Shown here one piece after another: positions 26,820 to 43,719 of a stretch of DNA of 64,000 nucleotides. The notes beneath the pieces were generated by a model, which had not been told where the DNA came from, searched no databases, and saw nothing but the letters and a program-made list of their open reading frames with translations. The DNA is taken from contig VUYT01000006.1 of NCBI GenBank assembly GCA_008802785.1, positions 124,001 through 188,000 of the forward strand, in the 5' to 3' direction. Within the stretch, counting starts at the first letter, position 1. Each line of letters opens with the position of its first letter. This DNA comes from Symmetrospora coprosmae. Taxonomy: Eukaryota; Basidiomycota; Cystobasidiomycetes; Symmetrosporaceae. Both the position numbers and the translations under genes were made by a program.

Positions 26820-26908
26820 GACTGATTAGCTCAGTTGGTTAGAGCGTCCGACTGTTACTGCGCTGGCATGACATCGGGAGGTCTACAGTTCAAACCTGTA
26901 ATTGGTCG
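26820..26908 (+). tRNA. tRNA-Asn(GTT) with a 15-nt intron
   Basis: All arms fold: acceptor GACTGAT/ATTGGTC with discriminator G, D stem GCTC/GAGC, anticodon stem TCCGA/TCGGG with anticodon GTT at 26854-26856, T stem TACAG/CTGTA with loop TTCAAAC. A 15-nt intron at 26858-26872 sits after position 37, the normal eukaryotic tRNA site. Without it the tRNA is 74 nt. A TTTT terminator follows within 10 nt. Confidence 0.93.
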
Positions 26909-37867: not shown

Positions 37868-37874
37868 ATATATA
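37868..37874 (+). promoter_or_regulatory. TATA-like element of tRNA-Lys
   Basis: ATATATA starting 38 bp and ending 32 bp upstream of the first tRNA base, same spacing as at tRNA-Asn. It may compensate for the interrupted A box. Confidence 0.55.
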
Positions 37875-37920
37875 CGTTACTACATCACCTGTCCTTCATC
37901 CAAAAGCCTGGTTAACTCAG

Positions 37921-37988
37921 GTTAGTGACAACACCACCAGCTTCTGCATACGACACCCGATTCTAATGGGCTCTGTCTATCTCTACAG
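37921..37988 (+). other. GT-AG intron inside the tRNA-Lys D loop
   Basis: 68 nt, starting gttagtgac and ending tatctctacag, with ttctaat as a likely branch point about 22-27 nt from the acceptor. It separates AACTCAG from TCGGTAGAG of the D arm. Confidence 0.8.
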
Positions 37989-38045
37989 TCGGTAGAGTAT
38001 CTGACTCTTACTCGCTTTACAAAGCGGCGTGATCAGATTGTCGTG

Positions 38046-38117
38046 GTTAGTTCATTGATCGTGAGACTCCACCCGACAAGTCCACCGTCTGACCAAGCTC
38101 CTCTTTCAATCCATCAG
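38046..38117 (+). other. GT-AG intron inside the tRNA-Lys T stem
   Basis: 72 nt, starting gttagttca and ending caatccatcag, with tctgacc as a likely branch point and a ctcctcttt pyrimidine run. It splits the 5' strand of the T stem (GTG|GG). Confidence 0.8.
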
Positions 38118-38139
38118 GGTTCGAGCCCCACATCGGGCT

Positions 38140-39511
38140 TTCTCTTTTGCTCTGGACGTCCATGGACTTTTTTTTGCTTCGCTGGGCTCTCGTACACGCT
38201 CTCGGGGCGCTGGCGAGCTCCCCGCGTCGAGACCCCTCCCGGAGCCCAACGAGATGGCCTTTTGCCTTTACAAAGCTGCAGGTGCACTCTCCTGCACTGA
38301 ACGCACGTGAGGGCACCACCGTATTGGTGAGGCGACTACTCTGGCACGAGATCTTCCTCCATCCATGCAACCCTTCACTTTCGGCTACATCCAGACACAG
38401 GGCTCGGTAGGGCTGGCTTTTCGCATGTAGCAAGACACACTTGTGTTCTGCAGTGCCCTGCGAATACACCACAATGCTAATATTCGGTTTATGTCCCTCC
38501 GCGACCGAGATCTTTTTGTACCTAGCCGGGCTTCCTGCGGAGCCGTCTCCGCAATTCGCACTCAGGACGACAGGCTGACTAATATCGCTTTACTTGCAAT
38601 TCTGTTATACATGCCTGCAGTCTACGTCGCTCTCGATCCATACAGGACTCATTTACAAACTCTCGTACCTTTGTTCTTAATCACCGCGGCCATTCTCGGG
38701 AGGTTCGTCAACTTGGCCGAAGGTCTCAAGCGCATGGCGATTACAACTGATGATGTCTTCCAGCTCTGACAATCTTGTCACATACATCTACTCTACACTT
38801 ATCTTTCCATACACTCAACACCGCATGGCGACCCACTTTGACCGCGACCTTCCTCCTCCCTTGCGAAAAGGTGGAATACAGGGGCGGGCGTTCACAAGGG
38901 CATCGCAGGTAGCTTTTCGTTATTCAGAGCACATCGATCCGTCAAACTCGCGCCAAAGAGTGTATTCATGCGCTTTCCGTCGCATTCGAGCTCGTCCTCC
39001 CGGAGCTTCGTCCCACACAAAGCAGCCCCGCAATGTCAGAAAGACGGCCCTCTTGCCATCGACTCAACCTTCTCCATACCTCAACGCGTCATCCAGAAGG
39101 GTGCGCAGGTCAGTCTACTGACGCAAGCTTATTCCCTTTCCTGCAGGTCTGCTGGTGAACGGCATAGGGCATCTCCGCCACAGCAGCTAGAAGACCGGCA
39201 GCAACACGCGTCCCCTCTACCTTTTGGCGTGTTGTAAAGAGGGCTGCCATAGACATCTGACACAGAAGGGCTGGTAACATCGCACGAGATAGTCTTTGGG
39301 AGCCGCTCGTTATCGTGAAACGTGCACGACCTTGGCTTGTGCGCTAGAGCTATGCGCAAGAGATGGCCGCGTCACGGCAACCCCCATACCGCCTCGGTTA
39401 GTGAGAATGCTTGATTGCTCGGGCGCACGACTTCAGCCTCCCATTGACAACGACATGAAGCGCAAAAAGACGCGCTGGATACAACGACATGCTTTGCTCT
39501 TCACGGAATGC
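38140..39511. other. intergenic with one possible small membrane-protein frame
   Basis: A plus-strand frame at 38443-38769 reads a hydrophobic pair of segments (IALLAILLYMPAVYVAL and LVPLFLITAAILGRFVNLAE) ending at a TGA, which looks like two membrane helices. Downstream, 38825-39240 has several GT-AG pairs but no recognisable motif. The frame may be a real small gene or the exon of one. I cannot name it. The rest holds nothing visible apart from a T8 run near 38168. Confidence 0.3.
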
Positions 39512-40762: not shown

Positions 40763-41022
40763 TGCTGTTGTTCAGCGCGGGCCACCGTGAGTGCGATGCG
40801 ATATGCGGATAGAGTAGATTAGACGTTGGGTAACCTTCTGGTATGAAGGAAAGGGCGGATCCTGTCCTGTCCTGTCCTGCGTGCGACCGCTCTGCCTCCC
40901 TCCCTCGCTCGCTCGCTCCTCCGACCGCCGCCATGGCCAGATCACGTTTTCGGCTGCGAGCCTCGAGCCTCCACGCACACGCTCTCCCTCTTTCCATTAC
41001 GGACTGGCAACACCACACAAAG

Positions 41023-43719
41023 ATGAGTTCCGATCCAAGGTTCGCACGTCTGGCGACAGATCCGCGCTTCATCCGACCCAGCAAAGCCTCGCAAAAGGTC
41101 GTGCTGGATGACCGGTTCAAAGACCTGCTCAGCACAAAGAAGCAGGCCGGCGGTGGCAATGCGGCCAAAGTCGACAAGTACGGCAAGAAGGTCTCCAAGA
41201 ACAAGGCTGCAGAGGACCTCAAGGCATTCTACCGTGTAGATGAGGACTCAGCCTCGAAGAAGGTCAAGGGAAAGGCCAAGCCAAGCATCGTCGACCGCGC
41301 TCGAGGCGAGGGTCTCGAGGAAAGCAGCGACGAGGAAGATGCAGCGGAGGACGACAGTGAGGGTGAGGAGGAAGAGGAAGCAGCCAGCGACGATGAGGAG
41401 GACGATAGCGAGAGCGGCGAAGACGACAATGTCATGCTCGGCTCGAAGAAAGCTCGCGCTGCTGCACAGAAGGAGCGGAAGCGGCGCGCGTCTTCGGAAA
41501 TTTCCGTCGACCTCGATGAAGACGACCTTGATGACGCTGCGGCAGGGGAGGCCGCGGCATCCACCTCGGCACAGGTGGAGGCTAGCATCCCCACCATGGA
41601 GGGAAGCACGCGCCGCGTCGCCATCGTCAACCTCGACTGGGACAATGTCCGCGCCGTGGACCTGTTCAAGGTCTTTGACTCTGTCCTCTCACCCTCGGCC
41701 TCTGCGCTCGGTGGTCTTGGAGGCAGCGCCGCTGGTGTTGCAGGCAGCAGGAAGAGCAAGACGCGCATCGGTCGCGGCCGCGTCGAAAGCGTCAAGATCT
41801 ACCCGAGCGAGTTTGGCAAGGAGCGCATGGCACGAGAAGAGATGGAGGGTCCGCCTGTCGAGATCTTTGCCAAGCACAGAAAGAACAAGGCTGCCTCTGC
41901 TGCTTCGCTGGATCCGAAGGCAGCGGCTGCTGCTGCGAAGAGGCGCAAGAAGAAGCGTGCTCAGCAAGGGAGCGACTACGAATCCGACGAGGACAGCGAT
42001 GACGACCTGCTGCAGGAAGACGAGGGAGACGAGTACGACGAGGTCGCTCTGCGGAGATACCAGCTCGAACGGCTTCGCTACTACTATGCTGTCGTCGAGT
42101 TTGACACGGCTGCAGCAGGACAGCACGCGTACGAGGAGATTGACGGGACGGAGTTCGAGGCGACTGCCAATGTTTTGGATTTGAGGTGGGTGTCTCTCGC
42201 CCGAGTTCGCAAGAGCAAGGGCCTCCGGACTGATTGCACTCTCTCGTTGCCAGATACATCCCAGACGAGACCACGTTTGACGATGAGCCGACCGAGACGG
42301 CAACGCCTGCCTCTGTCGAATCGCAAGCATACAAGCCAGTTGACTTTGTCACGGACGTGAGCGAATGGCCGTTCCGTCGCTGCGCATGCTACTTTGACAT
42401 AGCTGACATTGTCCACCTGCAGGCCCTCCGGAATTCGAAAGTCAAGCTTACATGGGACGCCGACGATCCTGCGCGTGCAAAGTTGGTGCGCGGGACGTAC
42501 GATACCGTCACCACGTCCGGGGCAAAGGGAAAAGGCGGGAAGAAAGACGAAGCGGCCATTGACTACTCTGCGCTGCTCGCTTCCGACTCGGAGGACGACG
42601 CCGAGGCGGCCCGGCTGCGCACGCGCTCTGCTTTCGGCTTTTCCGCAGAGATGGGCGCATCGGGCGACGAGGACGGCTTTGGGATGGGCAGCGACGATGG
42701 CGAGGGCGAGGTGGACAAGGAGATGGAGATTACGTTTGGCCCTGCGCTATCCGGGAACCGCCTCGCCGAAGATGACGATGATGGCGAAGACGCCGAGCTG
42801 GCAGGCGGCGAGCGGCAGGAGACCTCCTTGGAGAAGTACGAGCGCAAAGACCGCGAGCGCCGCTTGGCCAAGAAGGAGAAGCGCAAAGCGGAAAAGCGCA
42901 AGCTCGCGGCTGGCGAAGGGAAGAAAGGGCGCAGATTGCACGGCGACGACGAGGACTCGGACCCGGACGAGGCATTCGACGCGAACCGGTTCGAGGCGGG
43001 CGGCGCAGACGACAACGGCGCAGATGGCTTCTTTGATCTTGACGCGGGTGCCGCGGACCAGGAGGAGGCGGAGGAGAAGGAGGCGAGGCTCTCCAAGAAG
43101 GCGGCCAGGCAGCTCGAGCGCGAGACGGAGGCGAAAGAAGCCGCTGCGCTCTCGCTGCTCGTTGGGGACGACGACGATGCCGGCGGGTCGGGCGGCGAGG
43201 GCGGCGCCCGGGGCCACTTTGACATGCAGGCCATCCTTCGCGCAGAAAAGACGGCAGGCAAGCCAAAGAAGGTGCTCAAGAAGGGCAAGGACCGGCGCAA
43301 GCACCAGGAGGCAAAGGAGCTGCTCGAGAAGGAGAAGGACAGGTTCGCCGTCGACACCAAGGACGACAGGTTCAAGAGCCTGCACGAGGACCACGAGTTT
43401 GCCCTCGATCCTTCCAACCCGAGGTGCGTCCCTGTTTCGGCTATGTCCCCTCTGGCTAGCTGGCTGACTCGCGCTGCCCTTCCCTTGCAGGTACATGAAG
43501 ACCAAGAATATGGAGAAGCTGCTCGATGAATCACGCAAGCGTCGCTCAGACCAGCCTGTGGAAAGCAGCGGGCCTGCCTCGCAGAGTGGGGCCAGTGCCA
43601 GCGGTGCAGCCGACAAGAGCAACGGCCTATCGAGTCTTGTCGAGAGCATCAAGCGGAAGAGCAGTGCGGCCGCTGGCGAGAACAGCGGCAAGAAGCAGAA
43701 GAAGCAGAAGCGTGCATAA
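41023..43719 (+). CDS. ESF1: ESF1, nucleolar pre-rRNA processing factor
   Basis: Small-subunit processome protein needed for 18S rRNA maturation. Exons 41023-42185, 42254-42356, 42423-43423 and 43491-43719 sum to 831 residues. The start MSSDPRFARLATDPRFIRP is the family signature, followed by KVVLDDRFKDLL, a long acidic run, and the RNA-recognition-like core STRRVAIVNLDWDNVRAVDL, VESVKIYPSEFGKERMAREE, YQLERLRYYYAVVEFDTA, HAYEEIDGTEFEATAN. Then VLDLRYIPDETTFDD is rebuilt across the first splice. The C-terminal NUC153 motif KDDRFKSLHEDHEFALDPSNPRYMKTKNM spans the last splice (shown in two parts here: KDDRFKSLHEDHEF and ALDPSNPRYMKT). It ends in basic KKQKKQKRA. Long minus-strand frames here are shadows. 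Confidence 0.96.

Follow-up and report, generated by a model that had tools for sequence, protein, structure and literature searches.

Textbooks divide RNA splicing by enzyme, assigning mRNA introns to the spliceosome and tRNA introns to an endonuclease and a ligase. mRNA-type introns are known in fungal U6 snRNA, a transcript of RNA polymerase III, and many short GT-AG introns have been gained as introner elements. In fungal 18S rDNA, which is transcribed by RNA polymerase I, an mRNA-type intron is also on record, judging from a 1993 title cited in PMC11782384. Ectopic or multiple tRNA introns occur in Cyanidioschyzon merolae, the Guillardia theta nucleomorph and crenarchaea, as described in excerpts of PMC3978253 and PMC4090602. 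The latter, a review of tRNA introns from 2014, supposes non-canonical tRNA introns to be rare in eukaryotes, and its main text has no word in "spliceosom-" (PMC4090602). A full-text literature search, with thin coverage of subscription journals and bioRxiv, returned no report of spliceosomal introns in tRNA genes, and none is mentioned in excerpts of related papers (PMC11782384, PMC13149111, PMC4605306, PMC3978253, PMC4494063, PMC13148404, PMC4090602).

The genome of Symmetrospora coprosmae (20.05 Mb in 77 contigs) appears to present a different arrangement. Among the 42 nuclear tRNA genes that we located, 21 have GT-AG introns outside position 37/38, one to three each and 31 in total, and 21 have none. 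As in U6 and 18S rDNA, which are read by polymerase III and polymerase I, these would be mRNA-type introns in a non-coding transcript; unlike in those cases, the hosts are tRNA genes throughout the genome, which have as many as three such introns each and often a 37/38 intron in addition. Canonical introns of the latter kind, 11-32 nt long, are present in 16 of the 20 tabulated interrupted genes (Glu-TTC being counted by its second scanner reading), and the GT-AG introns differ from them in that none of the 29 mapped lies at 37/38. The likeness to C. merolae, G. theta and crenarchaea is that one tRNA can have more than one intron, in the D, anticodon and T arms; however, according to excerpts of the same two papers, the introns there are of the bulge-helix-bulge endonuclease type or, as in G. 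theta (3-24 nt), very short, whereas those described here measure 58-82 nt, have spliceosomal signals and show no general bulge-helix-bulge (PMC3978253, PMC4090602).

One such gene lies in the window, i.e., the 64-kb stretch at positions 124001-188000 of contig C65, and its anatomy is given in Table 1 together with the other interrupted genes. The initial annotation had proposed three cuts in this locus, and these are exact to the base: what remains is a 73-nt tRNA-Lys(CTT) in which all stems pair, as claimed, and the joined exons are called tRNA-Lys(ctt) by ARAGORN. The GTTAGT...CAG ends and the CTAAT or CTGAC branch-like sites that it described are present at both longer inserts. Its reading of the locus, in which two introns are of spliceosomal type and the third is an ordinary 37/38 intron, is supported as well. 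Both longer inserts are typical of the tRNA genes of this genome.

Table 1. Anatomy of the interrupted tRNA-Lys(CTT) gene (positions within the window) and GT-AG introns of the interrupted tRNA genes located genome-wide.
Feature	Position	Strand	Remarks
TATA-like element	37868..37874	+	38 nt 5' of tRNA start; by sequence
Exon 1, GCCTGGTTAACTCAG	37906..37920	+	acceptor 5' strand through position 15
GT-AG intron 1, 68 nt, GTTAGT...CAG	37921..37988	+	D loop, position 15/16
Branch-point-like CTAAT	37963..37967	+	branch A 22 nt from 3' splice site of intron 1
Exon 2, 5' part	37989..38010	+	D arm and anticodon loop with CTT, through position 37
Ordinary tRNA intron, 21 nt, at 37/38	38011..38031	+	
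Exon 2, 3' part	38032..38045	+	anticodon 3' strand, variable loop, positions 49-51
GT-AG intron 2, 72 nt, GTTAGT...CAG	38046..38117	+	T stem, position 51/52
Branch-point-like CTGAC	38089..38093	+	branch A 25 nt from 3' splice site of intron 2
Exon 3, positions 52-73	38118..38139	+	carries B box GGTTCGAGCCC, 38118-38128
TTTT, likely RNA polymerase III terminator	38145..38148	+	
Lys-CTT, window and L034			two GT-AG introns each
Lys-TTT L069			two GT-AG introns
Asp-GTC L033 and L046			two GT-AG introns each
Trp-CCA L044b			two GT-AG introns
Ser-TGA L059b			two GT-AG introns
Pro-CGG L043	C11:796743	-	three GT-AG introns, 11-nt internal exon
Initiator Met L078			two GT-AG introns
Cys-GCA L032, Ala-TGC L040, Ala-AGC L072, Arg-CCT L042, Pro-AGG L058, Pro-TGG L071			one GT-AG intron each
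Leu-TAG L061, Leu-AAG L075, Gly-TCC L063, Gly-CCC L065, Ile-AAT L070, Glu-TTC L073			one GT-AG intron each

Applied to the intact window DNA, ARAGORN finds no tRNA, at settings that also miss the tRNA-Asn gene at 26820, and an Rfam search reported only that tRNA-Asn and not the interrupted Lys gene. Other genomes could have the same trait unnoticed, given that the tRNA searches on intact DNA missed the window gene. The tRNA-Asn(GTT) gene itself (26820-26908) is an ordinary one with a 15-nt 37/38 intron, and C65:79286-79374 (-), on the same contig, holds another copy that is identical in mature sequence. Excision changes the picture at the Lys locus: among 4937 single or double GT..AG excisions from a 521-nt segment there, five yield an ARAGORN tRNA, all of them this Lys-CTT, and the top score belongs to the exact cut proposed initially, while 279,660 such excisions in 59 random segments of the window yield none. 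When one insert is left free and GT-AG ends are not demanded, the proposed tRNA is the best product for insert 2 and ties for best with two near-identical products for insert 1; four registers are equivalent for insert 1 and three for insert 2, GTTAGT..CAG being among them in each case.

The genome-wide inventory was obtained with a scanner that searched sites with a B box or T loop for a cloverleaf, allowing it a 37/38 intron and as many as three GT-AG introns. The 20 scanned interrupted genes score 24.8-31.1 and the scanned uninterrupted genes 23.3-30.8; the maximum among 860 dinucleotide shuffles, in which the T loop and 3' part were kept, is 18.2, none reaching 20. For Glu-TTC the second-best reading was used (27.2 versus 27.7), as its intron ends in CAG and the resulting tRNA is of the glutamate type. 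Three genes were located by other routes, namely the initiator Met gene, Val-CAC (L079, so read here but called Ala-CGC by ARAGORN) and Ala-AGC (L067, a by-eye reading of an Rfam match). Every located Lys, Asp, Cys, Trp and Pro gene (three for Pro) and the single located initiator-Met gene are interrupted, in a scan limited to genes whose T loop is intact and whose 3' part is contiguous; uninterrupted Cys, Trp or Pro copies may have escaped it. Uninterrupted paralogues exist for Ile-AAT, Leu-AAG and Ala-AGC.

Five names (L045, L048, L053, L054, L056) are repeats of other loci, which were counted once, and three loci were not counted: L057, which is probably a tRNA-Gln whose D stem is weak, L074 (C44:23550-24035), which by eye looks like a decayed tRNA-Phe copy, and L062 (C44:786580-787140), which by eye looks like a decayed tRNA-Arg-TCT copy and lies about 0.3 kb from an intact tRNA-Arg-TCT gene on the opposite strand. 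No credible tRNA was recognized at L035, L039, L041, L044 (first site), L047, L049-L052, L059 (first site), L060, L064, L077, L080 and L081. Rfam alone gives 38 tRNA matches genome-wide at E 0.001 and 42 at E 10, and 19 of the 38 fall on contig C77, which bears mitochondrial genes. Nuclear tRNA genes are few, with at least 42 located in 20 Mb, and there is at least one locus each for U6 and 5S. The one U6 locus and the one 5S locus found both match their models at full length and have no long insert, which for U6 differs from the intron-bearing fungal genes; judging from U6 and 5S, introns do not seem to have invaded polymerase III genes in general.

The flanks of the interrupted genes bear on the polymerase that reads them. 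Of 38 tabulated tRNA genes, 23 have a TATA-like word at -50 to -20, versus 1.2% of background positions; the 23 comprise 14 of 20 interrupted and 9 of 18 uninterrupted genes, in a table that places L057 among the interrupted, drops L046 as a duplicate and does not contain L078. In nine of the 11 tabulated interrupted genes that were found without a T-run criterion, a TTTT begins no more than 5 nt from the tRNA end, and the TATA and TTTT flanks as a whole resemble those of uninterrupted tRNA genes. The upstream TATA and the nearby TTTT thus suggest transcription by RNA polymerase III with an upstream TATA, an arrangement that would tolerate the splitting of the A box by D-loop introns. The hexamer CGTTAC recurs upstream of the window Lys-CTT gene, L034 and L033, and ACATCAAA near the start of L070, L009, L072 and L040; both may be elements of the promoter or of the start site. 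Polymerase II, too, uses TATA boxes, an intron at 13-17 splits the A box region in ten of 20 genes, and the B box is split where the intron lies at 52/53 or 53/54, all of which could speak for non-coding pre-RNAs made by polymerase II and spliced in an mRNA-like manner, from which the tRNA would then be trimmed. This scheme is unlikely, given the TTTT so close to the tRNA end and the flanks shared with uninterrupted tRNA genes.

The borders of the introns can be fixed independently in one case: removal of a 66-nt GTTAGT..CAG insert from the interrupted Ile-AAT gene (L070) gives the uninterrupted Ile-AAT (L009), with 75 of 75 nt identical, and the only register that does so begins with GTTAGT and ends with CAG. 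When scoring relied on the cloverleaf and GT..AG alone, 28 of the 29 introns were recovered, 27 of them as the best solution and one (Cys) tied for best with a reading without any spliceosomal intron; in the case of Glu-TTC, which was missed, the intron set comes third, behind other readings. All 28 recovered introns have a CTNAY branch site 14-30 nt from the 3' end, against 10.4% of 833 control GT..AG stretches, and all 28 have G at +5, against 26.5% of controls; a YAG 3' end is found in 26 of the 28, against 43% of controls. Taken over the whole scanned set, CTNAY at this distance and G at +5 are present in 29 of 29 introns, and the 3' end is CAG in 86% and AAG in two. The introns of the initiator gene (59 and 63 nt) include one with CTGAC at 17 nt, whereas the other, the second intron, has only CTCAG, at 21 nt, in place of CTNAY. 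In length (58-82 nt), the introns of tRNA genes resemble 84 putative mRNA introns of the window (median 72, quartiles 65 and 82), which were chosen by consensus and frame so that their consensus is not independent.

With one insert left free at a time and no GT-AG ends demanded, the highest-scoring product, sole or tied, includes the GT..AG register in Cys, Ala-TGC, Arg-CCT, Gly-CCC and, for either insert, in each of the two Lys-CTT copies, the ties concerning the first Lys-CTT inserts, Cys and Gly-CCC. Another structure beats GT-AG for Pro-AGG, Leu-TAG, Gly-TCC and L057, and both Asp inserts are slightly outscored by another product.

By position, ten of the 29 introns lie at 13-17, ten at 23-32, two at 33-35, one in the variable loop and six at 51-54. 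The second Lys-CTT copy (L034) and Lys-TTT (L069) have an intron at the same place as intron 1 of the window gene, and L034 and Pro-CGG (L043) one at the same place as intron 2. The commonest site is 15/16, which follows the near-universal A14-G15 and reads AG/GT, a context consistent with insertion at proto-splice sites. The 29 introns resemble introners in being many, short and bounded by GT-AG, but unlike introners they form no sequence family: an all-against-all comparison at E 0.01 gave matches only between paralogous gene copies. An introner or transposon family was rejected for this lack of intron similarity across genes, and in sequence the introns do not resemble copies of a single mobile element. 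They may have arisen by insertion of intron RNA, as the initial annotation suggested.

A rival explanation takes the inserts for ectopic tRNA introns that the tRNA splicing endonuclease would cut at a bulge-helix-bulge, as in Cyanidioschyzon or crenarchaea, the GT-AG ends then being a coincidence. Endonuclease systems do exist in which a tRNA has several introns in its D, anticodon and T arms, 25/26 and 53/54 among the sites, according to excerpts of PMC4090602 and PMC3978253, and seven of the 29 inserts have some bulge-helix-bulge pairing within 3 nt of the register. However, such pairing is absent at the ends of the other 22 (76%, with 87.5% of controls lacking it), which led us to reject bulge-helix-bulge introns for want of a general signal, and GT..AG, G at +5 and CTNAY 14-30 nt from the end occur together in 29 of 29 inserts, a branch site being found in 10% of controls. 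The minimum-energy fold of the 234-nt precursor, in addition, is not a cloverleaf and lacks the tRNA body that the enzyme reads. Endonuclease cleavage of these inserts is therefore very improbable. The 94-nt intermediate, from which the GT-AG introns have been taken out, folds as a cloverleaf bearing the 37/38 intron (z of only -2.3 against shuffles); in the 73-nt form, the minimum-energy fold differs in the middle part.

Comparison of gene copies reveals that exons and introns have evolved differently. Between the window Lys-CTT gene and L034, 73 of 73 exon bases are identical and the 37/38 introns share 19 of 21 bases, whereas intron 1 is alike in 46 of 74 aligned columns and intron 2 in 53 of 72; the conserved part of intron 2 is its last 30 nt (93%), comprising the branch site and the 3' end. 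The initial annotation had raised the prospect of a decaying pseudogene, and the window gene does not appear to be one because its paralogue keeps all 73 exon bases. It had also called for a whole-genome check for other Lys-CTT genes: the exon-2 pattern, with up to three mismatches, occurs at three places, all of them interrupted Lys genes, and no intact Lys-CTT copy was found by this search. A search with the 73-nt contiguous Lys-CTT DNA gave no match either, a result that is weak alone as it misses the known exons too. The exons of the two Asp copies are identical (72/72), and the Asp 3' exon pattern, again with up to three mismatches, occurs genome-wide at two places, both in interrupted genes. 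Likewise, the initiator anticodon arm has a single exact occurrence in the genome, in the interrupted L078, and the two places with one mismatch, L080 and L081, have no tRNA. The exon joins of L078 read GCAGTG/GAAGCG and CCTTG/GATCGA, a second cut of the first intron being scored equal by ARAGORN, and its joined exons match what we take to be the initiator tRNA consensus. These pattern searches covered Lys, Asp and the initiator anticodon arm, and their match counts are possibly lower bounds. That the interrupted genes are dead copies or chance constructs, with the cell relying on uninterrupted genes, is the least probable of the explanations considered and hardly credible, even with uninterrupted Ile-AAT, Leu-AAG and Ala-AGC paralogues and decayed tRNA copies (L074, L062) in the genome, since the exons are conserved in Lys-CTT, where the introns diverge, as well as in Asp and Ile, the Lys and Asp exons and the sole exact initiator arm are found by these pattern searches only in interrupted genes, and the scanner scores exceed those of all 860 shuffles.

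Since the searches place the Lys and Asp exons and the initiator anticodon arm only in interrupted genes, splicing of this kind seems necessary for the supply of lysine and aspartate tRNAs and for the initiation of translation, as far as can be read from the genome. We consider it very likely that the interrupted loci are working tRNA genes whose transcripts, very probably made by polymerase III, undergo splicing by the major spliceosome before the tRNA endonuclease and ligase remove the 37/38 intron. The DNA itself shows the anatomy, the splice signals, the exon conservation and, in the pattern searches, the confinement of the Lys and Asp exons to interrupted genes; from these we infer expression, excision of the introns in vivo, the polymerase and the order of the two splicing steps, which would be as follows. 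RNA polymerase III would transcribe the interrupted gene, and the major spliceosome would remove one to three short U2-type introns, thereby rebuilding the tRNA body; the endonuclease and ligase would then take the 37/38 intron from the re-formed cloverleaf. This order is proposed because the 94-nt form folds as a cloverleaf while the 234-nt precursor does not, and because the eukaryotic tRNA endonuclease requires a tRNA body. Half of the located nuclear tRNA genes would need spliceosomal removal of introns. Points that count against the spliceosomal reading are the 11-nt internal exon of Pro-CGG, the shortest found, the lack on a polymerase III transcript of the cap, which aids splicing of the first intron, the uninterrupted U6 and 5S loci, the two AAG ends, the CTCAG of the second initiator intron, the inserts for which other structures score as well or better, and the modest z of the 94-nt fold. 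It is very probable that the spliceosome is essential to tRNA processing in this fungus, the initiator and all genes found for several amino acids needing it, and many of them the endonuclease after it, before protein synthesis can take place, which would thus require the spliceosome twice.

Half of the located tRNA genes thus seem to break the division of splicing by enzyme. They make testable the need of the spliceosome for a cap or for polymerase II, the minimum length of an exon (11 nt here) and the entry of introns into genes without a coding frame, and the Ile-AAT pair, with and without an intron, offers a clean case of gain or loss.

Other genes provide a setting for these observations. 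A 1212-aa ORF encodes a protein with three matches only. Part of a gene for ESF1, a pre-rRNA processing protein, lies at 40843-42360 of the window; below a 98% match, its relatives are 49-63% identical and come from metagenome-type sources, followed by Mixia, which suggests a poorly sampled basidiomycete lineage. Trees indicate a basidiomycete setting, the wider position being weakly supported. Cytochrome b is 91-92% identical to those of the smut-fungus relatives Macalpinomyces, Jaminaea and Parajaminaea and 89% to that of Tilletia, with the closest proteins reaching up to 97%.
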